DNA of 25,193 bases, from IMG/VR virus record IMGVR_UViG_3300036817_000217, positions 1 through 25,193 of that record, one strand, 5' to 3'. Below the pieces are notes generated by a model that was not told the DNA's origin, ran no database searches, and saw only the letters and a program-made list of their open reading frames with translations. Of this stretch, positions 1 through 10,660 are shown in pieces (position 1 is the first letter of the stretch; each line of letters starts with the position of its first letter). Origin of the DNA: a virus. The position numbers and the translations under genes are program-made.

Positions 1-99
1 CCGCGGTGCGGCGCGACTACCTGCAGAGGTTGGTAAGTCCGAAATTGCTACAGGGGGGTACGGAGCGGGGATATGCGAGGAAGCTTCCGGGGCTACCGG

Positions 100-655: not shown

Positions 656-767
656 AGTAGCTTTGAGCCCTTCTACGCAAACTGATAGGAGAAGCATTAG
701 CCCCTCGGGGAGTGTGTCAGTGAAAGGCGAGGGCTCAAAGCTACTCAACCGTAGCAACCAAAACAAC
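656..767 (+). promoter_or_regulatory. Two-hairpin leader of the first early gene (leader 1 of 9)
   Basis: Hairpin A is a perfect 16-pair helix, AGTAGCTTTGAGCCCT (656-671) with its complement (730-745), enclosing an inner ACTGA/TCAGT helix with CCCC-TC-GGGG. Hairpin B is GCTAC (740-744)/GTAGC (751-755). The 3' arm of A and the 5' arm of B share bases 740-744, so the two cannot both form fully. The ATG follows twelve bases later, after AACCAAAACAAC, with no Shine-Dalgarno sequence. The other eight early leaders share this architecture with different sequences. Confidence 0.7.
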
Positions 768-974
768 ATGACAAGATTACATATCTATAAGGGTCAAGAG
801 ATTAAAACCTCCTGCAATTACAAGTTCTGGATTGCCTTTGTTAATGGTAATGACATCCTGATGAGGGAGCAGATTACCGAGACCATGGCATTAAATAGAG
901 CCAAAGCTTATATTGACAGTAAGTATACAGATAAGGAGTTGGAGGAGAGGGAAGCAGCGGAGGAGGATAGGTAA
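768..974 (+). CDS. Small early protein of unknown function, 68 aa
   Basis: I do not recognise this protein. The frame is open further upstream, but I chose the ATG at 768 because it directly follows the two-hairpin leader and the A/C-rich start region common to the early genes; the upstream codons fall inside hairpin A. The product begins MTRLHIYKGQE, has a strand-rich first half and a glutamate-rich end. Its pattern (tyrosine-lysine-glycine near the start, a short hairpin, then a helix with alanine and a YID segment) loosely resembles the products at 975, 2297 and 6738, suggesting a divergent family of small early proteins. The next gene begins on the base after its stop codon, so the two are probably translated together. 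Confidence 0.75.
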   Translation: MTRLHIYKGQEIKTSCNYKFWIAFVNGNDILMREQITETMALNRAKAYIDSKYTDKELEEREAAEEDR

Positions 975-1169
975 ATGACCTACGACTACAACGATCATAC
1001 GATAACGATAACCTCCTATGAGGAATATCTACACCCCGAGTATGAGGAGAAGTTTAACTTCTTCGCTATCAAGGTGGATGATGAGCAGTTAGTAGGGATG
1101 TACATAACGGAGGAGGAAGCAAAGAAGGCGGCAGAGGACTTCATAGATGAGGAACTCCAATACCTGTGA
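975..1169 (+). CDS. Small acidic early protein of unknown function, 64 aa
   Basis: The start immediately follows the stop of the gene at 768 and is preceded by a purine-rich GGAGGATAGG ribosome site, so the pair forms an operon. The protein is strongly acidic and ends with a helix rich in alanine and glutamate (residues about 43-60, including the segment FIDEEL). It is similar in layout to the product at 6738-6920, which also has a short strand-rich half followed by a helix ending in IDEE. Small acidic early phage proteins often bind host proteins or mimic DNA, but nothing here proves either role. Its stop overlaps the GTG of a tiny membrane peptide gene. Confidence 0.75.
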   Translation: MTYDYNDHTITITSYEEYLHPEYEEKFNFFAIKVDDEQLVGMYITEEEAKKAAEDFIDEELQYL

Positions 1170-1240
1170 TTATATTACTCCTTATGATATTGGGACCGAT
1201 TGTCGGACTATCGTTCGCAATGTGGTCATGGAAGAATTAA
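1166..1240 (+). CDS. Tiny single-pass membrane peptide, 24 aa
   Basis: A GTG start overlaps the TGA stop of the previous gene in the GTGA arrangement typical of translational coupling. The 24-residue product begins MIILLLMILGPIVGLSFAM and ends WSWKN: one hydrophobic stretch with tryptophans and a lysine at the C-terminal interface, as in a real transmembrane peptide. It fills almost the whole gap to the next leader. The function is unknown; small membrane peptides in early phage operons can act on host membrane enzymes or in superinfection exclusion. A comparable gene overlaps dpdA at 8649-8735. The very short length keeps confidence moderate. Confidence 0.45.
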   Translation: MIILLLMILGPIVGLSFAMWSWKN

Positions 1241-1242
1241 AA

Positions 1243-1332
1243 TGCTTAGGTGCCCTCCTAGATGGAGGGCACTCATAGCAATTTAATAATGGTTATTAAA
1301 TTGTGAAACCAACAACAGCAGAGATTACAACA
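1243..1332 (+). promoter_or_regulatory. Two-hairpin leader of the antirestriction gene (leader 2 of 9)
   Basis: Hairpin A has outer TGCT/AGCA (1243-1246/1277-1280) and inner GTGCCCTCC/GGAGGGCAC (1250-1258/1264-1272), with an asymmetric internal loop of TAG against TCAT. Hairpin B is the 11-pair CAATTTAATAA/TTATTAAATTG (1279-1289/1293-1303), whose 5' arm takes the last two bases (CA) of the A stem. A 29-base A/C-rich segment then leads to the ATG. Hairpin A is almost identical to that at 2216-2254. Confidence 0.7.
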
Positions 1333-2214
1333 ATGAATGATAAGAAGATGGATGTCTACGATATTGTGACCGAGCGTATTGTAAAGATACTGGAGTCGGG
1401 GGTAATACCCTGGAACAGTCCCTACGATCACAACACCTCTCTGGGGTATATGCCCCGCAACCTGGTGAACGATAAGGAGTATCGGGGAGTTAACCGATGG
1501 CTTCTTTACGGCAGGTTTGAGAATCCCTACTACGTCAGTGCCAATCAGTGCAGGGCATTGGGGGGAGTGGTTCGAAAGGAGGAGTGGTGGAAGAATTCCC
1601 TGGTAACCTGGTGGAAGACGGAGGAGCACATCGATGAGAGGACCCAGGAGGTCACCAAACGGTGGTACCTGAGATTCTATAAGGTGTGGAACGTTTTACA
1701 GTGTGACGGTATCAAACACAAGAGGTTGGACGTTAAACTTAACGATAACCCGGAGATGGTTAAACCCACTGCGGTGGTTAGGGGAATGCCTAACAAGCCT
1801 GCCATCAAGCAGGACAGCCCGAAGGTTGCTTATTACAACCCGAAGGCGGATGAGGTGCATATTGGTAAGGTGGGGAACTTCAAAACCTCCACCGCCTACT
1901 ATGCAACCCTCTTTCATGAGTTGGTGCATTCGACGGGTCACGAGTCACGATTGAATCGAGGATTGGAGGGTATCACCACCAATAAACTCGGTTATAGTCG
2001 GGAGGAGCTCGTGGCGGAGTTGGGTAGCGCATACCTTTGCGAGTTAAGTGGGATTGGCAAACCCACCCTGAAGAATGCTGCGGCCTACATACAGCATTGG
2101 GTAACCTTCATAACGGAGGATCCCAAGGCGATGGTGGGAGCGGCATTAAGGGCAGAGAAGGCCTGCGACTACATACTGAATCGCGAACACGAATCCTCCT
2201 CGGAGGAGGAGTGA
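1333..2214 (+). CDS. ardC: ArdC-like antirestriction protein with zincin metallopeptidase domain
   Basis: ArdC-type proteins bind single-stranded DNA and protect incoming DNA from host restriction. The N-terminal part (residues about 6-130) shows the usual opening YDIVTERIVKILESGVIPW and later aromatic motifs of the ArdC N-terminal domain. The C-terminal part carries the zincin signature HELVH at about 195-199 followed by STGHESRLNR and YSREELVAELGSAYLC, a set of motifs characteristic of the family; the downstream glutamate would be the third zinc ligand. At 293 residues it is a usual length. I chose the ATG; a GTG ten codons upstream is in frame but lies at the end of hairpin B and looks like leader. 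In this phage it would act together with the DNA modification cassette at 7766-10660. Confidence 0.92.
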   Translation: MNDKKMDVYDIVTERIVKILESGVIPWNSPYDHNTSLGYMPRNLVNDKEYRGVNRWLLYGRFENPYYVSANQCRALGGVVRKEEWWKNSLVTWWKTEEHIDERTQEVTKRWYLRFYKVWNVLQCDGIKHKRLDVKLNDNPEMVKPTAVVRGMPNKPAIKQDSPKVAYYNPKADEVHIGKVGNFKTSTAYYATLFHELVHSTGHESRLNRGLEGITTNKLGYSREELVAELGSAYLCELSGIGKPTLKNAAAYIQHWVTFITEDPKAMVGAALRAEKACDYILNREHESSSEEE

Positions 2215-2215
2215 G

Positions 2216-2296
2216 TTGCTTAGGTGCCCTCCTAGTGGAGGGTACTCATAGCAATTCGAAGGAATTGTGAAACAACAACAACTACTACAATACAAA
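2216..2296 (+). promoter_or_regulatory. Two-hairpin leader (3 of 9)
   Basis: Outer TTGCT/AGCAA (2216-2220/2250-2254), inner GTGCCCTCC/GGAGGGTAC (2224-2232/2237-2245). Hairpin B is CAATTC/GAATTG (2252-2257/2262-2267), sharing CAA with the outer stem. Hairpin A is a near copy of that at 1243-1280, but hairpin B has a completely different sequence that still pairs, which is evidence that the structure is what is conserved. An A/C-rich start region follows. Confidence 0.7.
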
Positions 2297-2500
2297 ATGA
2301 GCGAACAAAAGGTAATTAGATCCACCTACAAGGGAGTTAAGATAGAGGTATATCCCATAGAGACTGCCGAAGGACATTATGTCTATGACTTCATGGTCAA
2401 TGAGATATATTGGGGAACGGTATTTAAACTGGAGGAGGTTCAAAGGTACATGGACCTATTTAGAAACAAGGTAGATAGAGGGGAGAACTTACATGAATAA
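2297..2500 (+). CDS. Small early protein of unknown function, 67 aa
   Basis: I do not recognise this protein. It starts MSEQKVIRSTYKGVKIEVYP and has alternating charged and hydrophobic residues suggesting a small beta sheet followed by a helix (residues about 45-60). The pattern TYKGVKIEVYPIE resembles the KYKDYIIDVFPFT of the product at 6738, so the two may be divergent paralogues. I chose the ATG at 2297, after the A/C-rich leader, over an in-frame GTG at 2267 that lies at the end of hairpin B. Its last codons overlap the start of the next gene, so the genes at 2297, 2493 and 2709 form one operon. Confidence 0.75.
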   Translation: MSEQKVIRSTYKGVKIEVYPIETAEGHYVYDFMVNEIYWGTVFKLEEVQRYMDLFRNKVDRGENLHE

Positions 2501-2705
2501 CCCTCCTATGGAGTTTCAAGAGTATCTAGAGAAGATGCCTCCCGCAATGATCGGTAGTCTAATCATGGAGTATCTTCGGGAGAGCAATCATCAGGGGTGG
2601 GATGGATTTAGTCCCCGACATATGTCGGGTATTAGAGCATTATTTAGGGATATAATGCTGTATGGTAAACACCATAGTGTCTATGGGGAGAAAAAGGAGG
2701 AATAA
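2493..2705 (+). CDS. Small early protein of unknown function, 70 aa
   Basis: I do not recognise the family. The gene overlaps the preceding one by eight bases and has a purine-rich GGGGAGAA ribosome site, so translation is probably coupled. The product is mostly helical by composition, with a hydrophobic central stretch (residues about 14-27) and a basic, histidine-containing second half (SPRHMSGIRALFRDIMLYGK), and ends in a charged tail. No membrane segment or cysteine motif is visible. Confidence 0.7.
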   Translation: MNNPPMEFQEYLEKMPPAMIGSLIMEYLRESNHQGWDGFSPRHMSGIRALFRDIMLYGKHHSVYGEKKEE

Positions 2706-2708
2706 CAA

Positions 2709-2906
2709 ATGGAGAAGAAGCAAAGGGAGAAAATCTTCATCGAACATATGGGTAAAAGGTATCAGTTAGTGGGAGTTAAGGCAATGCTGAGACCAATAGG
2801 GGAAGATGAGAATATTAAGATGATATGGGCCGATGTTAAATTGGACACCCTTATATTGAAGGCCGCCTTGGATGTGCGGAAGCTAGAGAAGAAGAAACGC
2901 AAATAA
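2709..2906 (+). CDS. Small basic early protein of unknown function, 65 aa
   Basis: A strong Shine-Dalgarno sequence (AAAAAGGAGGAA) lies ten bases before the ATG, in contrast to the leader-borne genes of this block. The product begins MEKKQREKIFIEHMGKRY and ends in a lysine-rich tail, giving a net positive charge compatible with nucleic-acid binding, but no recognised fold is visible. It is the last gene of the operon opened by the leader at 2216; the next leader begins right after its stop. Confidence 0.7.
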   Translation: MEKKQREKIFIEHMGKRYQLVGVKAMLRPIGEDENIKMIWADVKLDTLILKAALDVRKLEKKKRK

Positions 2907-2907
2907 A

Positions 2908-2986
2908 TTGCTAGTCTGCCCTGACGAGTTCAGGGTAGCTATAGCAGTTTAATAATGGTTATTAAATTGTGAAACAACCAACATAT
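2908..2986 (+). promoter_or_regulatory. Two-hairpin leader (4 of 9)
   Basis: Outer TTGCTA/TAGCAG (2908-2913/2942-2947), inner TGCCCTGA/TCAGGGTA (2917-2924/2930-2937). Hairpin B is CAGTTTAATAA/TTATTAAATTG (2945-2955/2959-2969) and shares CAG with the outer stem. Here the inner helix differs in sequence from leaders 2 and 3, while hairpin B returns to the AATAA-TGG-TTATT form. The start region ACAACCAACATAT precedes the ATG. Confidence 0.7.
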
Positions 2987-3571
2987 ATGGCAAACAACAA
3001 AAAAGAAGAAGCAAAACCCTCCCTTTCACGGGAGGAGGAGGTCACACTTAAGAAGTGTGAGGAAATCATCGACGCGGGTCTAAAGACCCTCTTCGAGGTG
3101 GGTAAAGCTCTACAGACCATTCAATTGGGTAAACTGTATCGGTTAACCCATTCCACCTTTCAGTCCTATGTGCAGGAGAGATTCCAAATCTCCCTGCCCT
3201 GGGCCTATAAGTTAATGGAGGCCGCGAAGGTGGTGGGTGATTTCAAGGGAGAGAACCTAAACACCAATCAGGCTGCTGCTTTGGCTAAGGTGGATCCCAA
3301 TAAACGTAAGACAGTGCTTAACAAAGCCAAGGCAAGTGCCAAGGCTCGGGGTAAGAGGGTGACTGCGAGGGACATCCATAACGCCAATGGGAAGAAGACC
3401 ACGGGGGATAAGTATACCCTGGAGCAGTTCGCCAAGGAGTTGGGCGGATTGGTAAATAAGGCAAAGGCCGAGGGACTTCCTCTGGTGGTGATCACCGATA
3501 CCATCGGTGCAATTCATGGTAGTCTGGTTCGACTCTGCAAAGAGCAGTCAGATAAGAGGAAGGCAGCCTAA
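2987..3571 (+). CDS. ParB-like DNA-binding protein without nuclease domain
   Basis: The central region has the pattern seen in a group of phage and plasmid ParB/KorB-like proteins: a helix around residues 33-49 (VGKALQTIQLGKLYRLTHST), then FQSYVQERF...SLPWAYKLMEAAKVV, then TNQAAALAKVDPNKRKTVLNKA. In this group these segments form a helix-turn-helix for DNA binding. The rest is lysine/alanine-rich (about 105-130), probably a flexible basic linker, followed by a helical C-terminal part that could dimerise. The N-terminal nuclease or CTPase signature of true ParB proteins is not visible, so partitioning is not implied; a regulator or replication accessory is more likely. I chose the ATG after the A/C-rich leader rather than the in-frame GTG at 2969. 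At 194 residues it is the second largest early protein here. Confidence 0.6.
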   Translation: MANNKKEEAKPSLSREEEVTLKKCEEIIDAGLKTLFEVGKALQTIQLGKLYRLTHSTFQSYVQERFQISLPWAYKLMEAAKVVGDFKGENLNTNQAAALAKVDPNKRKTVLNKAKASAKARGKRVTARDIHNANGKKTTGDKYTLEQFAKELGGLVNKAKAEGLPLVVITDTIGAIHGSLVRLCKEQSDKRKAA

Positions 3572-3575
3572 CAAT

Positions 3576-3658
3576 TAGCCATCTGTCCCCCTCGAGGGAG
3601 GGGGATAGTGGCTAGTGGTTAATTAGAACCATTAGAACCAAAATAACAACAACACATA
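3576..3658 (+). promoter_or_regulatory. Two-hairpin leader (5 of 9)
   Basis: Outer TAGCCA/TGGCTA (3576-3581/3609-3614), inner TCCCCCTC/GAGGGGGA (3586-3593/3598-3605). Hairpin B is a nine-pair CTAGTGGTT/AACCATTAG (3612-3620/3627-3635) with one G-T pair, sharing CTA with the outer stem. An A/C-rich segment of 23 bases (AACCAAAATAACAACAACAC and so on) precedes the ATG. Confidence 0.7.
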
Positions 3659-4078
3659 ATGCAATACATAACTAAGTTAGTATTAAGCCAGGATGATTAC
3701 CATAATCTTCTGGAGGCCCTACAACTCTTCATTAAGTCACCCAAGGTGACGGAGGAGAACTTCGATGAACTACGAAACCTTTATGGTCACATAAAGCAAC
3801 AGTATGGTCGAAGGGAGAAGGCGACTAATCTAACCTCTGCTTCGGAGGTAATGGAGGAGGAGAAGACCTCTACTCCTACACCTGCACCTGTTAGTAAGAA
3901 GGTGGGGGTTAAGTCCTCCAAGGCGGTGGAAAAGACGGTGGAAGATAATGGTGTGGAGGCACACCCCTTCATCGCATCCAAGAAGCAGAGTTGGATTTGC
4001 ACCGAGTGTGGTAAGAGTCGTAATAGTTCCTACCATAAGAATGCGGAGGGTAAACTTTGGCTACCCAAGAAAGGCTAA
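3659..4078 (+). CDS. Early protein with C-terminal cysteine-pair motif, 139 aa
   Basis: The protein has three parts: a helical N-terminal domain (residues 1-52) starting MQYITKLVLSQDDYHNLLEA, a long low-complexity linker rich in Ser, Thr, Pro, Val and Lys (about 53-105), and a short C-terminal module with CTECGKSRNSSYH. Two cysteines plus a following histidine suggest zinc binding. The N-terminal domain matches that of the next gene (DDxYxxLxEALxxFI), so the two are paralogues joined to different zinc modules. Function unknown; the design of a domain, a linker and a zinc knuckle suggests a nucleic-acid or protein adaptor. The gene stands alone between two leaders. Confidence 0.75.
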   Translation: MQYITKLVLSQDDYHNLLEALQLFIKSPKVTEENFDELRNLYGHIKQQYGRREKATNLTSASEVMEEEKTSTPTPAPVSKKVGVKSSKAVEKTVEDNGVEAHPFIASKKQSWICTECGKSRNSSYHKNAEGKLWLPKKG

Positions 4079-4083
4079 ACGAT

Positions 4084-4151
4084 TAGTCAGCTGCCCCTCT
4101 TAGGAGGGGCGGTGACTAGTGGTTAACACCCATTAGAACCAACCAACATAT
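4084..4151 (+). promoter_or_regulatory. Two-hairpin leader (6 of 9)
   Basis: Outer TAGTCA/TGACTA (4084-4089/4113-4118), inner GCCCCTC/GAGGGGC (4093-4099/4104-4110). Hairpin B is CTAGTGG/CCATTAG (4116-4122/4130-4136) with one G-T pair and shares CTA with the outer stem. The start region AACCAACCAACATAT precedes the ATG. Confidence 0.7.
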
Positions 4152-4649
4152 ATGAAACAGATAGTATTACAATTGGATGACGAACGCTACCAGGTATTGG
4201 TGGAGGCATTAGATTGCTTCATTAGGAAACCTGAAAAAGGTGCTGCTTATATGCAGTATCCTGAGAAGGAAAGGGTAATGGCCGAACAGTTGAAGGGGTT
4301 AATAATAACCCAATGGACCGGTAGCAGATATACCTCGCAGGAAATGGAGGTTATCGAGGCAGTTAAGTCCAACGTCATGCCCGTGCATGAGTATGTGCAT
4401 GATGCAAAAGCGGGGGTATGTAGTAGATGTGGGCTATCAGAAAGGCATAACATACACCTTGATCCTGTTAGTCAGGAGTATGTTAGGATAGGTAAGGAGA
4501 AGATGCCTATTAGGGTGGGTAAGGAGAAACAGCCTGTGAACTATCATAGGTTTGAACCTTCAACCAAACTTGATGGTACTCCCGACTACAAGAGATGTGT
4601 GATATGTCATAAGGGTCAAAGGGCCCACGTTCATCGCCTGGATGATTAG
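4152..4649 (+). CDS. Early protein with two cysteine/histidine zinc-knuckle-like motifs, 165 aa
   Basis: The N-terminal domain (MKQIVLQLDDERYQVLVEAL, then FIRKP) is a paralogue of the product at 3659. Two metal-binding-like motifs follow: CSRCGLSERHNIH at about residues 90-102 and CVICHKGQRAHVH near the C-terminus (about 149-161). Both are a CxxC pair followed a few residues later by two histidines, as expected for small zinc knuckles. The C-terminal half is rich in histidine and lysine. Function unknown; a nucleic-acid-binding or host-takeover role is possible. Two repeats of the motif in one protein and one in its neighbour suggest duplication within the early region. Confidence 0.75.
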   Translation: MKQIVLQLDDERYQVLVEALDCFIRKPEKGAAYMQYPEKERVMAEQLKGLIITQWTGSRYTSQEMEVIEAVKSNVMPVHEYVHDAKAGVCSRCGLSERHNIHLDPVSQEYVRIGKEKMPIRVGKEKQPVNYHRFEPSTKLDGTPDYKRCVICHKGQRAHVHRLDD

Positions 4650-4658
4650 TTAAACGAT

Positions 4659-4719
4659 TAGTCAGCCACCTCACTTCGGTGGGGTGGTGACTAGTGGTTA
4701 AACACTAGAACAAAACAAC
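4659..4719 (+). promoter_or_regulatory. Two-hairpin leader (7 of 9)
   Basis: Hairpin A is almost continuous: TAGTCA/TGACTA (4659-4664/4688-4693) stacked on CCACCTCAC/GTGGGGTGG (4666-4674/4679-4687), closed by a TTCG tetraloop. Hairpin B is CTAGTG/CACTAG (4691-4696/4703-4708), sharing CTA. The start region AACAAAACAAC directly precedes the ATG. Confidence 0.72.
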
Positions 4720-5025
4720 ATGTATAAGAAATTAAAGGAAGAAGAATTAAGTGAGTTTAATAGGAGGATAACTGTTAGGCTCAATGGAACCAAGAAGAAC
4801 CCCTTTGCTATATGGGGTTTGAAGCAGAATCCCTTTCCTCAGATAGGAGAATACCGGTATGATCCCTTCGATCATATGGTTCATTCTCTGGGTGGAATAC
4901 CTCTAAAGGGACAGAAGGATATTAGGGATAGGTTAAGGGGATGTTCTGAGGAGTTCGTGGAACTATGTTGTATGAAGTTCAAAAAGGGGGAGATGGTGGA
5001 ATTCGAGGTTCATTGGAAGGATTAA
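4720..5025 (+). CDS. Early protein of unknown function, 101 aa
   Basis: I do not recognise this family. The product begins MYKKLKEEELSEFNRRITVR and contains two NPF segments (KKNPFAIWG and KQNPFPQIG) about ten residues apart, then a segment YDPFDHMVHSLGG and a charged C-terminal half with two adjacent cysteines (ELCCMKFKKGE). The final strand-like stretch ends VEFEVHWKD. No membrane segment is present. It is the first gene of a two-gene unit with the zinc-finger gene at 5027. Confidence 0.75.
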   Translation: MYKKLKEEELSEFNRRITVRLNGTKKNPFAIWGLKQNPFPQIGEYRYDPFDHMVHSLGGIPLKGQKDIRDRLRGCSEEFVELCCMKFKKGEMVEFEVHWKD

Positions 5026-5026
5026 T

Positions 5027-5248
5027 ATGGGTGGATATGTCTATGTAATGGGTAATTGCATTGCGTGTGGAAGGTTGTTTAGCTTTCACCCGCATCATGT
5101 ACCCTCCAGTAGTGCTGTAACCGGCAAACGGGAACCCGTTTGCAGGGGGTGCATGGAGAGGATTAATGGAAGGCGAAGGGAGATGGGATTGGAACCCTTT
5201 TCCATCTTACCCGATGCCTATGAGGCCTGCCCTGAGGAGGAATTTTAA
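5027..5248 (+). CDS. Small zinc-finger protein with two CxxC pairs, 73 aa
   Basis: The segment CIACGRLFSFHPHHVPS (residues about 11-27) followed by VCRGCMERIN (about 38-47) gives two CxxC pairs separated by 23 residues, a treble-clef-like zinc site. Very similar short proteins with the GRLFSFxPxxVPS pattern recur in tailed phages, where they are usually annotated only as zinc-finger or HNH-like proteins; no nuclease histidines are evident here. The start used has an AAGGA ribosome site. A second ATG at codon 8 would also keep the motif. It is the second gene of the unit opened by the leader at 4659. Confidence 0.75.
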   Translation: MGGYVYVMGNCIACGRLFSFHPHHVPSSSAVTGKREPVCRGCMERINGRRREMGLEPFSILPDAYEACPEEEF

Positions 5249-5252
5249 CTCA

Positions 5253-5322
5253 CAAGATACCCTCCCCCATCGAGGTGGGGGAGCAATCTTGTTAGGATAA
5301 GAACTAATAAGGAACCAACAAC
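5253..5322 (+). promoter_or_regulatory. Two-hairpin leader (8 of 9), divergent sequence
   Basis: Outer CAAGAT/ATCTTG (5253-5258/5286-5291), inner CTCCCCCAT/GTGGGGGAG (5262-5270/5275-5283) with loop CGAG. Hairpin B is CTTGTTAG/CTAATAAG (5288-5295/5304-5311), eight pairs including one G-T, sharing CTTG with the outer stem. The arm sequences differ from all the other leaders, yet the same overlapping geometry is kept, which argues for selection on structure. GAACCAACAAC precedes the ATG. Confidence 0.72.
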
Positions 5323-5562
5323 ATGATACAAACAATAGAGTTAGATTGTCCTCCCGGTGCTCTACGACCGGGAGATTTAATAGAGGGAGTAATCAAGGGT
5401 ACCGGGTTACCTCGGAGGAAAGACATTAGTCGATTCTTTGGTCAATGGACCTGGGATTACTCCGATATACCTGAGGATAAGTGGAAAGCTATACAGCCCA
5501 AACTGAAGGAACGTATAGAGGCATTATATCATAGGGGGGTAATTCGTTATGGCAGCTGGTGA
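5323..5562 (+). CDS. Small early protein of unknown function, 79 aa
   Basis: I do not recognise this protein. It begins MIQTIELDCPPGALRPGDLI, a strand-rich opening with a Pro-Gly turn, then KGTGLPRRKDISRFFGQWTWDYSD, and ends with an amphipathic helix (residues about 55-72). The opening resembles a short beta-barrel or SH3-like start, but that is only an impression. Its last 14 bases overlap the next gene, so the genes at 5323, 5549 and 5727 form a coupled operon behind the leader at 5253. Confidence 0.72.
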   Translation: MIQTIELDCPPGALRPGDLIEGVIKGTGLPRRKDISRFFGQWTWDYSDIPEDKWKAIQPKLKERIEALYHRGVIRYGSW

Positions 5563-5749
5563 CAAGAGAACGTTGTTATGGGAGGTTTGGTTTGGTGCAT
5601 CCTTGGAAGATGCAATCCTAATCAAAACCACTCCCAACTTTGTGGAGGCCCACAAGTTATATAAGGAACGATCCAAATTTACCTATGTTTATAGGGTGGA
5701 GAAATGGTTGTGGATGGAACCGAAGAATGAAGGCAAACCAAATACGTAA
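5549..5749 (+). CDS. Small early protein of unknown function, 66 aa
   Basis: The gene overlaps its upstream neighbour by 14 bases and its downstream neighbour by 23. The ATG is preceded by AGGGGGG eight bases upstream, a plausible ribosome site. The product begins MAAGDKRTLLWEVWFGASLE, is rich in aromatic residues (four Trp, several Tyr and Phe) and has a strand-helix-strand layout with the second strand TYVYRVEKWLW. No catalytic or metal motif is visible. Confidence 0.65.
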   Translation: MAAGDKRTLLWEVWFGASLEDAILIKTTPNFVEAHKLYKERSKFTYVYRVEKWLWMEPKNEGKPNT

Positions 5750-5966
5750 TTTACAGATAATCCGAATGAGGCAGAATGGAGGAACCTACGCCAGCATAGG
5801 TGCCCTCTTTTCCATTACCCCGGCTCGGGTAAGACAGATATGTATAGAGGAGGATGGTAGGGGAGCTAGAAGGCGAAAGTTTCGCCAGGGTAAGATTTCT
5901 GGTACCCTTTATAACCTACAAGTGATATGTGATCAACTTCAGATACTTCTGAAGCCGGACCTTTAG
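5727..5966 (+). CDS. Small helix-turn-helix protein, 79 aa
   Basis: From the ATG at 5727 the protein reads MKANQIRNLQIIRMRQNGGT and then TYASIGALFSITPARVRQIC at about residues 20-39. This is the pattern of a sigma-region-4 or Trp-repressor-like helix-turn-helix: a first helix entering through YASIGALFSI, a turn, and a recognition helix starting TPARVRQI. A basic segment (GARRRKFRQGK) follows. It could be an early transcriptional regulator, and with the palindromes of this phage in mind it is a candidate ligand for one of them, although nothing directly links them. The reading frame is open further upstream, but that part overlaps the gene at 5549 and has no ribosome site, so I used the internal ATG. 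Confidence 0.6.
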   Translation: MKANQIRNLQIIRMRQNGGTYASIGALFSITPARVRQICIEEDGRGARRRKFRQGKISGTLYNLQVICDQLQILLKPDL

Positions 5967-6036
5967 TCAGCTGTTCCCCTTCGGGGGAACAGTGACTAGT
6001 GGTTATACACTAGAACCAAAACAACAATACACAAAA
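5964..6036 (+). promoter_or_regulatory. Two-hairpin leader (9 of 9)
   Basis: Outer TAGTCA/TGACTA (5964-5969/5993-5998), inner GTTCCCC/GGGGAAC (5973-5979/5984-5990) closed by a TTCG tetraloop. Hairpin B is CTAGTG/CACTAG (5996-6001/6008-6013), sharing CTA. The leader starts inside the stop codon of the preceding gene. A 23-base A/C-rich start region precedes the ATG at 6037. Confidence 0.72.
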
Positions 6037-6924: not shown

Positions 6925-6958
6925 AAAGAGGCGACCCCAAAAAGGGTCGCCTTTTTTT
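6925..6958 (+). terminator. Rho-independent terminator ending the early block
   Basis: A nine-pair GC-rich stem AGGCGACCC/GGGTCGCCT (6929-6937/6944-6952) with loop CAAAAA is followed by a run of seven T (6952-6958). It lies right after the last early gene and before the promoter at 6987, separating two transcription units. It also indicates a bacterial host. Confidence 0.92.
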
Positions 6959-6986: not shown

Positions 6987-7015
6987 TTGACTTTTTCTCC
7001 CTTTTAGGTTATATT
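6987..7015 (+). promoter_or_regulatory. Sigma70-like promoter of the modification and packaging operon
   Basis: TTGACT (6987-6992) and TATATT (7010-7015) are separated by 17 bases. The 16 bases 7006-7021 are identical to 13619-13634 at the second internal promoter. Transcription would begin near 7022, leaving only about eleven bases before the ATG at 7033. Confidence 0.75.
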
Positions 7016-7280: not shown

Positions 7281-7769
7281 ATGAACGACGACAGAGAACA
7301 TAAGGAGAGGATGCTTAAACATTTAACCAAACAGAAGAAGGTGTTGGATATGGCCAACCTGGAAATACCTCCCCTTCCCCCGGAACATGAGATTAAGATC
7401 AAACCCTTTGATATTGACAAGGCCACCAAGCCGGAATTGGATAAGGAGTATGTTAGGAAGAGAATCAAACGTACCGAGGCTCTTACCGTATCGGTGGAGT
7501 TGGAGTTGGCAAGGGCTAGAGGGGAGTTGATCGAAAGGGATCTAGCTATTAAGCAACTACAGTATTTAATGGTTACCGCCCGACAAAGACTACTGGCCCT
7601 ACCCACCTCCCTGGCCCGTCAACTACAACATAAGGAGGACATTCGAGAGATACATGGTATTCTACAAAGGGCGATTTATGAGGTATTGAATGAGTTGAAG
7701 GATCTACCTTTGAAGGTAACCGACCCCCGTTGGTTGGAACAACTAGATGAGGAGGAGCAGGGTAAATGA
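7281..7769 (+). CDS. Putative terminase small subunit (Nu1-like C-terminal segment)
   Basis: The C-terminal part carries a pattern common to Nu1-type small terminase proteins: QYLMVTARQRLLALPTSLAR, then a helix ending in ILQRAIYEVLNELKDLP (residues about 97-150). In that family this region assembles the oligomer or contacts the large subunit. The N-terminal 35 residues are lysine-rich and could bind DNA, but the usual winged helix-turn-helix is not obvious, and the middle (about 55-95) looks like a helical coiled coil. It begins directly after the palindrome at 7262 without a ribosome site, and its stop overlaps the dpdA start (ATGA). The large terminase follows only after the modification genes, an unusual separation that lowers certainty. 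Alternative: an accessory protein of DpdA. Confidence 0.45.
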   Translation: MNDDREHKERMLKHLTKQKKVLDMANLEIPPLPPEHEIKIKPFDIDKATKPELDKEYVRKRIKRTEALTVSVELELARARGELIERDLAIKQLQYLMVTARQRLLALPTSLARQLQHKEDIREIHGILQRAIYEVLNELKDLPLKVTDPRWLEQLDEEEQGK

Positions 7770-8668
7770 AGTTCTATATAGGGATGAATCGTACCGAAAA
7801 TGCGTGGGCTTTTGAGAGGTCCATGTTTTCTATTAATCTACTTTGGAATAATTTTAAACCCTTTAAGGTAAATAAGTGGTTATTAGATAGTGGGGGTTAT
7901 TCTCAGATCGCTAAGTTTGGGCGTTATATTAGTTCCCCTAAGTGGTATGTTTGGAGGATGGAGAAACTTCGGGTGAATGGACATTTGACGGGAGCCATGG
8001 CTCAGGATTGGCAATGTCAGCCGGTTCATTTGGCGAAAACGGGGTTTACCAAGGAGAAACACCAGGAGTTAACGATTAAGAGTTATGTAGATTTACAGGC
8101 TCTAACTACCGTTAGAATAATTCCCGTACTACAGGGGCATCATGCCCGCGATTATGTTAATCATGTTAAGATGTATGGAGATATTCTAAAACCCGGTACC
8201 TGGATTGCGGTGGGAGGAATTGCTGCCCGAAATAATCAACCAGGTTTAATTTTGAAAATATTGGAGGGTATTAAGTCCGAAAGAAGTGATCTTCGATTAC
8301 ATGGATTTGGTTTGAAATTTTCCTCCCTACAATATGAGTCAATAGTAGATTTGTTGTATACCGCGGACTCCATAAATTGGGTTATGAATGTTAGGTGGGA
8401 GGACATGGAGAGGTTTACTAGATTTGGTTATCACCTTAATGATGAACAGGATCCTCGACATGCATTGAAGTTTGCTTTCAGGATACAATCCCTGAAGGGG
8501 GTGGAAAATATAGTATATGGTATTAAAAAACCCTTTAAACGAACTACCCCAAAGGAAAAGGGATTGTATGAGAGGTTTTGGAAGGGTAAGGTGGATTTTG
8601 AAAATGATGGGGAGTTACATCGATGTCCTAGATTGGTAGGAGGAGAGTATGATCAGCTTGCTAGATAA
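7766..8668 (+). CDS. dpdA: DpdA-like DNA guanine transglycosylase
   Basis: DpdA proteins are relatives of tRNA-guanine transglycosylase that exchange guanine in DNA for a 7-deazaguanine base. The family hallmark here is LLDSGGYSQIAKFGRY (about residues 39-54), with the aspartate of the substrate-binding loop. Further TGT-like elements are MAQDW (78-82), PVLQG (120-124), AVGG (about 148-151) and LHGFGLK (178-184). The CxCxxC zinc motif of tRNA enzymes is not seen, as expected for a phage DNA version. At 300 residues it has the length of short phage DpdA proteins. The start overlaps the previous stop and has a GAGCAGGG ribosome site. It opens a cassette with queE, folE2 and queD that would supply the base; the presumed benefit is resistance to host restriction enzymes. 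Confidence 0.88.
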   Translation: MKFYIGMNRTENAWAFERSMFSINLLWNNFKPFKVNKWLLDSGGYSQIAKFGRYISSPKWYVWRMEKLRVNGHLTGAMAQDWQCQPVHLAKTGFTKEKHQELTIKSYVDLQALTTVRIIPVLQGHHARDYVNHVKMYGDILKPGTWIAVGGIAARNNQPGLILKILEGIKSERSDLRLHGFGLKFSSLQYESIVDLLYTADSINWVMNVRWEDMERFTRFGYHLNDEQDPRHALKFAFRIQSLKGVENIVYGIKKPFKRTTPKEKGLYERFWKGKVDFENDGELHRCPRLVGGEYDQLAR

Positions 8669-8735
8669 ATGGGGTTTAATTGTATTGATTTTTGCAGTAG
8701 GTATAGTGATGCTCATTTTAATTTGGCAATTGTAA
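8649..8735 (+). CDS. Tiny single-pass membrane protein, 28 aa
   Basis: The ATG lies 20 bases inside the end of dpdA and is preceded by an excellent Shine-Dalgarno sequence (AGGAGGAG) that is itself within dpdA. The product reads MISLLDKWGLIVLIFAVGIV and continues with a hydrophobic stretch ending IWQL: a short polar start and one transmembrane helix. It fills the gap to queE, which otherwise would be 78 noncoding bases in a closely packed operon. Function unknown; it sits within the DNA-modification cassette but nothing in its sequence suggests catalysis. Confidence 0.55.
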   Translation: MISLLDKWGLIVLIFAVGIVMLILIWQL

Positions 8736-8746
8736 GTCTTTAAAAA

Positions 8747-9433
8747 ATGTATATAAGCGAGATATTTTACTCAATACAGGGGGAGGGAGAACTAACGGGG
8801 ATTCCCTCCGTATTTATTAGGACCTCAGGTTGTAATCTTCGTTGTGTGTGGTGTGATACGAAGTATGCATCCTGGTATCCGGAGGGTAAGCAGATGACGG
8901 TGGGGGAGATTTTGGATGAGGTAAATCAACATGCCTGTGATCATGTGGTGTTAACGGGAGGGGAGCCCATGGTTGCTCGGGATATTCATGAATTGGCTAA
9001 TCGACTTAAGGCACAATCTAAACATATTACCATTGAGACCGCGGCTACGGTAATGCCCCAGGGTATTAAATGTGATCTGGCTTCCCTAAGTCCCAAGTTG
9101 TCCAATTCCACTCCCCAGGGAAGGGAAAGGGAGAAACATGAGAAATTAAGACTGCAACCGGAGGTAATTTATGAGTGGATTAATTGGTATGATTACCAAC
9201 TTAAGTTTGTGGTAAGTTCCGACAGGGATGTGGAGGAGATTAAGAATATATTGGTAAGTACTGGGGAGGCGGATTTTATAGAACGAGAAAGAATTATGTT
9301 AATGCCCGAGGGGACCAATGTGGATACCCTTCGATCCCGAAGTAAAATGGTGTCAAATATATGCAAGGAGTATGGTTGGAGGTATTGTCAACGACTACAG
9401 ATTGATTTATATGGAAATACAAGAGGAACGTAG
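8747..9433 (+). CDS. queE: 7-carboxy-7-deazaguanine synthase (radical SAM)
   Basis: QueE rearranges 6-carboxy-tetrahydropterin to 7-carboxy-7-deazaguanine, using S-adenosylmethionine and a 4Fe-4S cluster. The protein opens with ISEIFYSIQGEGELTGIPSV, the classic QueE beginning, followed by the radical SAM cluster motif CxxxCxxC (Cys29, Cys33, Cys36 in SGCNLRCVWCD) and the TGGEP motif (70-74) for SAM binding. SPKLSNSTP (about 124-132) corresponds to the family's substrate-binding segment. Its 228 residues are the usual length. No clear ribosome site precedes the ATG. The end overlaps the folE2 start by 23 bases. It would supply the base for DpdA. Confidence 0.95.
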   Translation: MYISEIFYSIQGEGELTGIPSVFIRTSGCNLRCVWCDTKYASWYPEGKQMTVGEILDEVNQHACDHVVLTGGEPMVARDIHELANRLKAQSKHITIETAATVMPQGIKCDLASLSPKLSNSTPQGREREKHEKLRLQPEVIYEWINWYDYQLKFVVSSDRDVEEIKNILVSTGEADFIERERIMLMPEGTNVDTLRSRSKMVSNICKEYGWRYCQRLQIDLYGNTRGT

Positions 9434-10223
9434 ATTATTTGAGGGTAAGTTATTTGATGTACAGCGTATCCCGGATGATAGGGGTATTGAGATCGATAAG
9501 GTGGGAGTTTGTGATTTAAGATACCCCTTGGTAATATTGGACAAGGAGAGGGGGAGGCAATCGGTTACCGCTAAAATATCCATGAGTGTATCTTTACCTC
9601 ATAACTTTAAGGGAACCCATATGAGTAGATTTTTGGAGATATTAGCTATACCTCGAGAAACTCTTACCCTGAAAATGTTACCCTTAGTCTTGGGAGAGTT
9701 AAAGACTAAACTCTCGGCAGAGAGTGCCCATATTGAGATTGAGTTTGATTACTTTATAACTCGTAAGGCTCCAATATCAGGATTGGAGGCGCCCATGGAT
9801 TACCATTGTGCCTTTGTGGGGGAGATGAATGGAGGAGAGATAGATTTGGTATTAAGGGTAACGGTACCCGTGGTCACCCTATGTCCCTGTTCAAAACTTA
9901 TCTCGGATTATGGTGCACATAATCAACGAGGGTATGTTACCATAGAGGTAAGGGGTTCCGAAATGATTTGGATCGAGGAGTTGGTGGAAATTGCTGAGAG
10001 GTCCGCTTCCGCTCCTATTTACCCTCTATTAAAAAGGGTGGATGAGAGACATATAACCATGCAGGCTTATGATAATCCCGTTTTTGTGGAGGACGTGGTT
10101 CGTAATGTTGCCCTGAGATTGGGTGCGGATCTTAGGGTAACATCTTTTGAGGTAAGAGCAGAGAATCAGGAAAGTATACACAATCATTCCGCCTTTGCGG
10201 TGGTAACTGGAAGGAAATTATAA
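9411..10223 (+). CDS. folE2: GTP cyclohydrolase IB (FolE2 type)
   Basis: This enzyme converts GTP to dihydroneopterin triphosphate, the first step of deazaguanine synthesis. The type IB signature is clear: VTLCPCSKLISDYGAHNQRG at about residues 145-164, with the catalytic cysteine, then NPVFVEDVVRNV and a C-terminal ESIHNHSAF segment. The unrelated type IA enzyme (FolE), which many phage deazaguanine cassettes carry, has a different motif set. The frame is open 31 codons further upstream, but I chose the ATG at 9411, where the family-like sequence begins (MEIQEERRLF); the earlier codons lie within queE. At 270 residues the length is normal. The TAA stop shares one base with the queD start. 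Confidence 0.93.
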   Translation: MEIQEERRLFEGKLFDVQRIPDDRGIEIDKVGVCDLRYPLVILDKERGRQSVTAKISMSVSLPHNFKGTHMSRFLEILAIPRETLTLKMLPLVLGELKTKLSAESAHIEIEFDYFITRKAPISGLEAPMDYHCAFVGEMNGGEIDLVLRVTVPVVTLCPCSKLISDYGAHNQRGYVTIEVRGSEMIWIEELVEIAERSASAPIYPLLKRVDERHITMQAYDNPVFVEDVVRNVALRLGADLRVTSFEVRAENQESIHNHSAFAVVTGRKL

Positions 10224-10660
10224 TGTTCACCATATGTAAGACCTTTGAAATTGAGAGTGGTCACATGCTAAGTAAGCATCCCGACAAATGTAGGTTTCCC
10301 CATGGTCATACCCGTAAGATAGAATTCTATTTGACGTCGGAGGATTTGGATGAGAATGAAATGTTATGTGACTTCAAAATACCCAAATTGGTAATTTCAG
10401 ATTACCTGGAGGCGTTGGATCACTCCATGTGTATTAATAGGGAGGATCCCGGGGCTCATGAATTGCTTACCCGTTATAAATCCCGGGTAATTCTTTATGA
10501 GGGAGATCCCACCACCGAAATAATGGCTCGGGAGTTGTTTGAAATATTTAGTGAAAGGTTACTCAGTTATGAGGGACCCTATAAGCTAAGGAGAAAGGTA
10601 AAGCTAGCTAAGGTTAGGGTTTGGGAAACCTCCTCCTCCTGGGCAGAATACTCCCTATGA
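10223..10660 (+). CDS. queD: 6-carboxy-tetrahydropterin synthase
   Basis: QueD converts dihydroneopterin triphosphate to 6-carboxy-tetrahydropterin, the substrate of QueE. The expected zinc ligands are present: His14 in ESGHML and His27 and His29 in PHGHT, together with the catalytic Cys23 just before them. LDHSM (about 75-79) and the closing VRVWETSSSW segment, with its substrate-binding glutamate, complete the family picture. The 145-residue length is slightly above the bacterial norm of about 120. The gene overlaps the folE2 stop by one base, so all three synthesis genes are tightly coupled. Its end overlaps the small gene at 10657 (ATGA). Confidence 0.94.
   Translation: MFTICKTFEIESGHMLSKHPDKCRFPHGHTRKIEFYLTSEDLDENEMLCDFKIPKLVISDYLEALDHSMCINREDPGAHELLTRYKSRVILYEGDPTTEIMARELFEIFSERLLSYEGPYKLRRKVKLAKVRVWETSSSWAEYSL

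Follow-up and report, generated by a model that had tools for sequence, protein, structure and literature searches.

Paired hairpins with a shared strand precede nine Shine-Dalgarno-less genes of a phage

Nine genes of a phage genome, starting at positions 768, 1333, 2297, 2987, 3659, 4152, 4720, 5323, and 6037 of the window (the whole analyzed stretch of 25,193 nt), each have in front of them a long hairpin (A), a second hairpin (B), and an A/C tract that is poor in G and runs into the ATG. The initial annotation of this DNA had described such a recurring plan, and all three parts were indeed found before all nine genes. The overlap of the two hairpins, which it had put at 2–5 bases, comprises 4–8 nt of the 3′ arm of A. 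In all nine leaders the full lower stem of A and the full hairpin B, which use this one strand, are mutually exclusive and represent true alternatives, in line with the competition that had been proposed. We tentatively interpret the nine elements as modular, Shine-Dalgarno (SD)-independent translation leaders with a bistable RNA element that would be gated by ribosomes, a reading that we hold at slightly less than an even chance.

Results

Structure of the leaders

All nine leaders are located on the + strand. The arm sequences vary and the pairing is retained, as had been noted previously, and the three arm pairs cited as examples proved to be correct. When the arms of the leaders were swapped, 39–56% were paired, versus 99–100% for the own arms, a comparison that is partly circular because the arms had been selected by pairing. 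As a non-circular counterpart, B with the shared arm was compared, given A, with shuffles of the downstream sequence, and was superior in all nine cases (p = 0.001–0.018 for eight leaders, 0.046 for that of gene 768). In 80-nt windows tested against dinucleotide shuffles, eight of the nine leaders were among the most significant folds of the 25-kb window (z from −4.2 to −6.6).

In the leader of the ArdC-like gene 1333 (1243–1332), A extends from 1243 to 1281, the 12-bp hairpin B from 1278 to 1304 (TTTAATAA-TGG-TTATTAAA), and the A/C tract from 1305 to 1332 (p = 0.001). For gene 2297 (leader 2212–2296), P1 of A (2212–2258) takes in the upstream stop codon, and B (2251–2268) is followed by the tract at 2269–2296 (p = 0.003). 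The corresponding positions of A, B, and tract are 2904–2951, 2944–2970, and 2971–2986 for gene 2987 (leader 2904–2986, p = 0.006); 3574–3616, 3612–3635, and 3636–3658 for gene 3659 (3574–3658, p = 0.010); 4082–4120, 4116–4136, and 4137–4151 for gene 4152 (4082–4151, p = 0.018); 4657–4695, 4691–4708, and 4709–4719 for gene 4720 (4657–4719, p = 0.005); 5252–5292, 5287–5312, and 5313–5322 for gene 5323 (5252–5322, p = 0.007); and 5963–5999, 5996–6013, and 6014–6036 for gene 6037 (5963–6036, p = 0.002). The leader of gene 768 (656–767) is a variant, with a long-range P1 of 15 bp (656–670/731–745) around a complex loop, a short B (GCTAC 740–744/GTAGC 751–755, with GCTAC as the shared strand), and an A/C tract up to 767; its folding z-score is about −4.3. 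A 19-codon open reading frame (601–660) has its TAG stop inside this P1, a weak observation that may be due to chance.

The leaders of the window are partly duplicates of one another and form two sequence groups plus those of 5323 and 768, so that they do not represent nine independent trials. A covariance model built with MAFFT recovered no more than 7 pairs, owing to the differences in length and sequence among the leaders, and a purpose-written structure detector was used instead. An Rfam search of the window, including ribozymes, riboswitches, and leaders, gave no match above the gathering threshold; a permissive search added only sub-threshold matches, which fell on the terminator or within coding DNA.

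Competition between the two hairpins

The energy difference between the A and B states ranges from −6.7 to +7.0 kcal/mol, and in five of eight leaders it is at most 4 kcal/mol. This balance is not conserved: B dominates in the leader of 1333 and in that at 55825 of the related phage G001, and A dominates by 5–7 kcal/mol in the leaders of 4152 and 4720. The 5′ arm of P1 lies −4 to +15 nt from the upstream stop codon, a closeness that may simply reflect the compact spacing of phage genes. Masking this arm in silico, as a terminating ribosome would, brought B to 0.81–1.00 in all eight window leaders that were modelled. Judged solely by thermodynamic modelling, a switch between A and B is possible. 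Neither state pairs the start tract, and only the length of the free RNA differs; an on/off effect is therefore not evident, which counts against the bistable-leader reading.

Start regions

The lack of SD motifs at the leader genes, also reported in the initial annotation, is real: the mean anti-SD duplex energy is −1.2 kcal/mol for these genes, whereas the 25 remaining genes have a mean of −6.8 kcal/mol and random positions one of −4.2 kcal/mol (rank test of leader versus other genes, p = 0.0007). As the other genes of the same phage are SD-enriched, the lack of SD is confined to the leader and palindrome classes. The A/C content of the last 15 nt is 0.67–0.93 at the leader genes versus a mean of 0.46, and seven of the nine have an A at −3.

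Genomic context

An intrinsic terminator at approximately 6929–6957 on the + strand, read directly as GGCGACCC...GGGTCGCC followed by seven T, closes the leader-gene operon; the scan found the same stem on the − strand. It is followed by a sigma70-like promoter before the packaging and structural genes (6987–7015, + strand, TTGACT-17-TATATT), the best + strand match with 10 of 12 positions. The leaders had been termed early; their cluster does precede a strong terminator with hairpin and T run and a sigma70-like promoter, and the timing is deduced from this position only. Simple termination after A had been considered unlikely, and a T run is indeed absent behind every A hairpin; in the terminator scan only that of 5323 (5262–5283), with the tail CAATCTTGTT, was weakly terminator-like. 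A consistent promoter was not found within the leaders, the region containing 15 sigma70-like matches versus 11.4 (sd 3.3) in shuffles, and the combination typical of T4-type PeSL cassettes, an early promoter plus a stem-loop at each joint, was not observed.

Occurrence in other phages

Alignments of the early genes identified G001 as essentially the sole close relative. In its homologous region the same plan occurs, with unrelated sequence, at 52198, 52967, and 55825. The initial annotation had regarded homologous leaders without compensatory changes as evidence against its proposal; the first G001 leader, homologous to that of the window, retains the plan although its sequence differs (A GCTACTTAGAGTAGACT/AGTCTATTCTAAGTAGC; B AGTAGC/GCTACT, p = 0.0025). 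For the leader of 55825, p was 0.002 for B, and that of 52967 was found by the structure detector. A further candidate judged by eye, at 54630, was rejected, its B being too weak (p = 1). In several of the G001 leaders the hairpins simply stand in tandem and share only 0–3 nt. The unrelated phage G005 has the same plan at 27468 (L060_9731; p = 0.022) and 26644 (p = 0.0015).

When an A/C tail of 0.75 or more was required, the detector gave 13 matches in 15,703 start regions versus one in shuffles, and 10 of the 13 belong to the window, G001, and G005; among about 15,700 other start regions the two-hairpin plan hardly occurs. The neighbors of ArdC in three GenBank phages had no convincing leader of this kind, and IMG/VR DNA-pattern scans with CTAGTGGTT..ACTAGAACC and TAGTCA..TGACTAGTGGTT retrieved only chance matches in other contexts. 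Terminase-based searches for relatives yielded only four close contigs and none in GTDB genomes, and a megablast of the window against phages gave no match.

Discussion

Comparison with known systems

Leaders of the erm/attenuator type consist of three segments, the middle one of which has two alternative partners, the first and the third, and a ribosome on segment 1 favors 2:3 pairing. The leaders described here likewise contain two exclusive helices on one strand, the middle strand pairing with the first or third segment. They differ in that no stalling leader peptide is established, that neither state sequesters the start site or makes a terminator, and that nine sequence-unrelated copies without an Rfam match lie between the genes of one phage operon. 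Early genes of phages can also be separated by repeated stem-loops, as with the RNase III sites of the T7 early region and the T4-type PeSL cassettes, neither of which is characterized by a hairpin pair with a shared arm plus an A/C tract. Literature searches on mutually exclusive phage leaders and on T7 RNase III sites gave no usable results.

Non-SD start regions with a Kozak-like A at −3 occur in Bacteroidetes and other bacteria (PMC6847099); absence of SD, low structure near the start, and A at −3 are shared with the leader genes, which differ by the added upstream hairpins and by SD-enriched genes in the same phage. TAACTGA repeats before start codons, with a suggested translational role, are described for Beggiatoaceae, Cyanobacteria, and Bacteroidetes (PMC4679880). 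Tandem AACT-type units directly before the ATG in the absence of SD are similar (AACTAACTAACTAACT-ATG in G001 leaders), but the unit is 4 nt, AACT, instead of the 7-nt TAACTGA (the window has AACCAAAACAAC), and the passages considered here show no shared-arm hairpin pair.

Alternative explanations

A passive role is a serious competitor, at a probability that we put clearly below even. The hairpins would guard mRNA ends, keep the A/C tract from pairing with coding RNA, or serve as RNase III-type processing sites, and the shared bases would merely stack neighboring hairpins without single-stranded linkers. In the T7 early region such sites split a polycistronic transcript. P1 and P2 of the leaders form a near-continuous helix of about 14–20 bp, a plausible substrate of a double-strand RNase with a length compatible with an RNase III site, at which cleavage would be putative. 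The G001 tandem hairpins without real overlap and the unconserved A/B balance point in the same direction. By itself, however, passive structure leaves unexplained why B repeatedly pairs with 4–8 nt of the 3′ arm of A, both across the leaders and in unrelated phages.

Recombination or shuffling cassettes similar to the PeSL modules of T4-type phages, in which leader and gene would be mobile and the repeats used for homologous recombination, appear unlikely. Between the small accessory genes the leaders do take up all of the intergenic space, and those of 4152 and 4720, from one within-genome group, contain the near-identical blocks ACGATTAGTCAGC/GTGACTAGTGGTTA. However, homologous recombination does not need pairing retained despite sequence divergence, the leaders of homologous genes in G001 are unrelated in sequence to those of the window, and the varying sequences speak against a joint for recombination alone, as do the strict orientation, distance to the ATG, and placement between stop codon and ATG. 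A single RNA-binding protein of the phage that controls the whole set through these sites would fit one shape present in many copies within one operon, two genes of which, 3659 and 4152, have products with CxxC...H motifs as read from the translations (no Pfam match above cut-off). A sequence motif common to all leaders was not found, in loops and bulges or elsewhere, which argues against a sequence-specific protein. The P2 loops also vary, and we regard this option as very unlikely. Hardly probable at all are nascent-RNA antiterminators, which would alter RNA polymerase to permit readthrough of the long operon. The put RNAs of HK022 are about 70 nt long with two stem-loops, and the two put sites per genome have a common sequence, are positioned downstream of early promoters, and have RNA polymerase as their target (PMC9378689). 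The leaders resemble them in having two adjacent stem-loops in about 70 nt of probably early phage RNA, with bulged bases, but are present in nine copies of unrelated sequence, each directly before an ATG.

Proposed function

The repeated plan, the A/B competition, and the absence of both terminators and SD motifs noted in the initial annotation were borne out, so that its interpretation is supported in part. Under the bistable-leader reading, the nine elements would be cis-acting 5′ leaders on what is probably a single polycistronic phage mRNA, each a module set between a stop codon and the ATG of the gene that follows, and the unpaired G-poor A/C tract would recruit ribosomes as a landing site in place of SD. 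The middle strand could pair with the 5′ arm of A or with the 3′ arm of B. With the upstream stop codon unoccupied, A would usually form and leave 19–51 nt of free RNA before the ATG, and a ribosome terminating there would cover the 5′ arm of A, so that B forms and the free tract is 8–32 nt. Because B formation shortens the tract, access to the start site would change with upstream translation, and the A/B exchange might be used for regulation.

More speculative, and in our estimate rather improbable, is a sequence-independent, ribosome-gated switch that serves as a standard component. A separate copy would belong to every gene group of the probable early operon, a ribosome terminating on the upstream gene would flip A to B, the state would set initiation at the SD-less A/C start, and unrelated phages would have the design in common by convergence or module transfer.

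Competing-hairpin leaders with almost no sequence conservation would escape sequence homology searches. If the leaders drive translation, they would represent an SD-free expression module that is portable and operates alongside the SD genes of the same genome, and SD-independent initiation together with termination-coupled refolding would be testable in nine natural variants.

Architecture of the leaders

At the level of sequence, the two-hairpin leaders of the genes starting at 768, 1333, 2297, 2987, 3659, 4152, 4720, 5323 and 6037 are real, repeated and conserved in structure, and they are also present in an unrelated phage. From 5' to 3', each consists of hairpin A, in which a small internal loop or bulge separates a P1 lower stem of 4–10 bp from a GC-rich P2 of 9–11 bp, followed by hairpin B (6–12 bp). 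The 5' arm of B includes 4–8 nt of the P1 3' arm, and B and the full P1 are mutually exclusive. The 768 leader follows the same logic with a long-range, 15-bp P1 and a short B. In free-energy scans, eight leaders were among the window's most significant folds.

To evaluate B without circularity, shuffling was confined to the sequence 3' of A, and the score taken was that of the best helix that included 4 nt or more of the P1 3' arm. The resulting p values were 0.001 (1333), 0.003 (2297), 0.006 (2987), 0.010 (3659), 0.018 (4152), 0.005 (4720), 0.007 (5323), 0.002 (6037) and 0.046 (768). By sequence, the leaders fall into the groups 1333/2297/2987, 3659/4152/4720/6037, 5323 and 768, so that they represent about four independent cases rather than nine. 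Up to five standard pair types occur per helix position. Arms of the same leader pair at 99–100% of positions, compared with 39% (P1), 52% (P2) and 56% (B) for arms exchanged between leaders, a partly circular comparison that overstates the covariation because the arms themselves were chosen by pairing; the shuffle tests of B are free of this flaw.

The same plan in other phages

The relative G001 (IMGVR_UViG_3300046374_000002; 60,208 bp), whose terminase is 64% identical to that of the window, encodes homologs of several leader genes at 52–56 kb, including ArdC (55%) and the product of 2987 (35%). Their starts lack a Shine-Dalgarno (SD) motif, and most have AACTAACTAACTAACT or variants just upstream. 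The first leader, at 52198, retains the plan with a different sequence (A, GCTACTTAGAGTAGACT/AGTCTATTCTAAGTAGC; B, AGTAGC/GCTACT; p = 0.0025), as do those at 55825 (p = 0.002) and 52967; other G001 leaders have hairpins in tandem that share few bases or none. In the unrelated phage IMGVR_UViG_3300012202_000002 (G005, fetched via ArdC as L060), two full examples, 26644 (p = 0.0015) and 27468 (L060_9731; p = 0.022), adjoin the ArdC gene.

A structure-only detector that required an A/C fraction of 0.75 or more in the tail yielded 13 matches in 15,703 start regions, against one in shuffles: eight window leaders, G001 55825, G005 27468 and a further three, including at least one terminator, judging by its T run. 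A less stringent run also recovered G001 52967 and G005 26644, and found no convincing leader in three GenBank phages with ArdC.

Translation start context and late-gene palindromes

Upstream of the ATG, the anti-SD duplex energy has a mean of −1.2 kcal/mol in the leader genes (p = 0.0007) and −0.5 in the late palindrome genes (p = 0.0006), compared with −6.8 in the remaining 25 genes and −4.2 at random positions. Thus, this phage seems to use SD motifs in other genes but to exclude them here. A and C account for 67–93% of the last 15 nt in the leader genes vs. 46% on average in the others (p about 1e-5).

The late palindrome, a perfect TTAATAACnGTTATTAA, lies 0–30 nt 5' of the ATG in seven late genes (7263, 10878, 13776, 17465, 20498, 22845 and 23359), likewise without SD, and may function as either an operator or a translational operator. 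In the relative L003, it precedes two genes, with different center bases. The G001 palindrome differs, TCATAACGTT(A/G)TGA, with 17 sites in 60 kb, mostly directly before start codons; both share a TAAC(n)GTTA core, with a spacer of 0 in G001 vs. 1 in the window. Hairpin B of leaders 1333 (1283–1299) and 2987 (2949–2965) nearly reproduces the late palindrome (TTAATAATGGTTATTAA), suggesting that leaders and late sites may have a common origin.

Genome context

The window derives from a contractile-tail phage (25,193-bp IMG/VR viral record) with genes for terminase, portal, head protease, head protein and sheath. Its left end is CCGCGGTGCGG, and G001 carries CCGCGATGCGG at its start and, in the same orientation, at its end. 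The motif CCGCG(G/A)TGCGG, found at window positions 1–11 and at both G001 ends, looks like the cohesive end of a packaged genome.

The leader genes form a co-directional cluster that runs from 768 to about 6920. It ends in a strong intrinsic terminator, read directly in the sequence (6929–6957), after which comes the region's best sigma70-like promoter (6987–7015). From the position of the cluster and its ArdC-type antirestriction gene (PHROG 7245), we infer that these are early genes. The products of 3659–4078 and 4152–4649 contain one and two CxxC...H motifs, respectively; neither has a Pfam match above the cut-off. In each of the three phages, an element resembling ATTATCAACGACTTACGA, in either orientation, is located 5' of the leader-gene cluster (window, 155–180; G001, about 47.2 kb and about 51.8 kb; L060, about 7550). 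The GC-rich, non-coding stretch at 230–600, 3' of a weak promoter-like site, is possibly a leader RNA; it contains GCGCTCTACTC(C)GCC, also found at the equivalent place in G001. Genes at 7766–10660 resemble a 7-deazaguanine synthesis cluster (queuine tRNA-ribosyltransferase-like, QueE, a FolE2-like protein recognized by eye, and QueD), which suggests modified DNA or tRNA.

Possible exchange between the two hairpins and comparison with known systems

The energy of state A minus that of state B ranges from −6.7 to +7.0 kcal/mol across the leaders. In the unmasked model, A is dominant in 2297, 2987, 4152, 4720 and 6037, whereas 3659 and 5323 each occupy both states and 1333 is mainly in B. When the P1 5' arm was masked in silico, the probability of B rose to 0.81–1.00 in all eight window leaders modeled. 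This arm lies −4 to +15 nt from the upstream stop codon, a span approximating the footprint of a terminating ribosome. Together, the masking result and this proximity make it possible that ribosome termination gates A/B refolding, although compact gene spacing alone would also put the upstream stop codon near A. The ATG is unpaired in both modeled states, and only the length of unpaired RNA 5' of it differs.

None of the Rfam families searched fits the leaders. In attenuators and erm leaders, segment 2 pairs with either segment 1 or segment 3. The window leaders have the same logic of alternative pairing but not the defining effect of those systems, in which the start site is hidden or a terminator is formed. 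With HK022 put (PMC9378689), they have only two adjacent stem-loops in common. The A/C starts resemble the non-SD initiation described for Flavobacterium (PMC6847099) and the TAACTGA repeats that stand before start codons (PMC4679880). Taken together, the most likely reading is that each leader is a module for SD-independent translation that carries a bistable hairpin pair, with a putative regulatory use.
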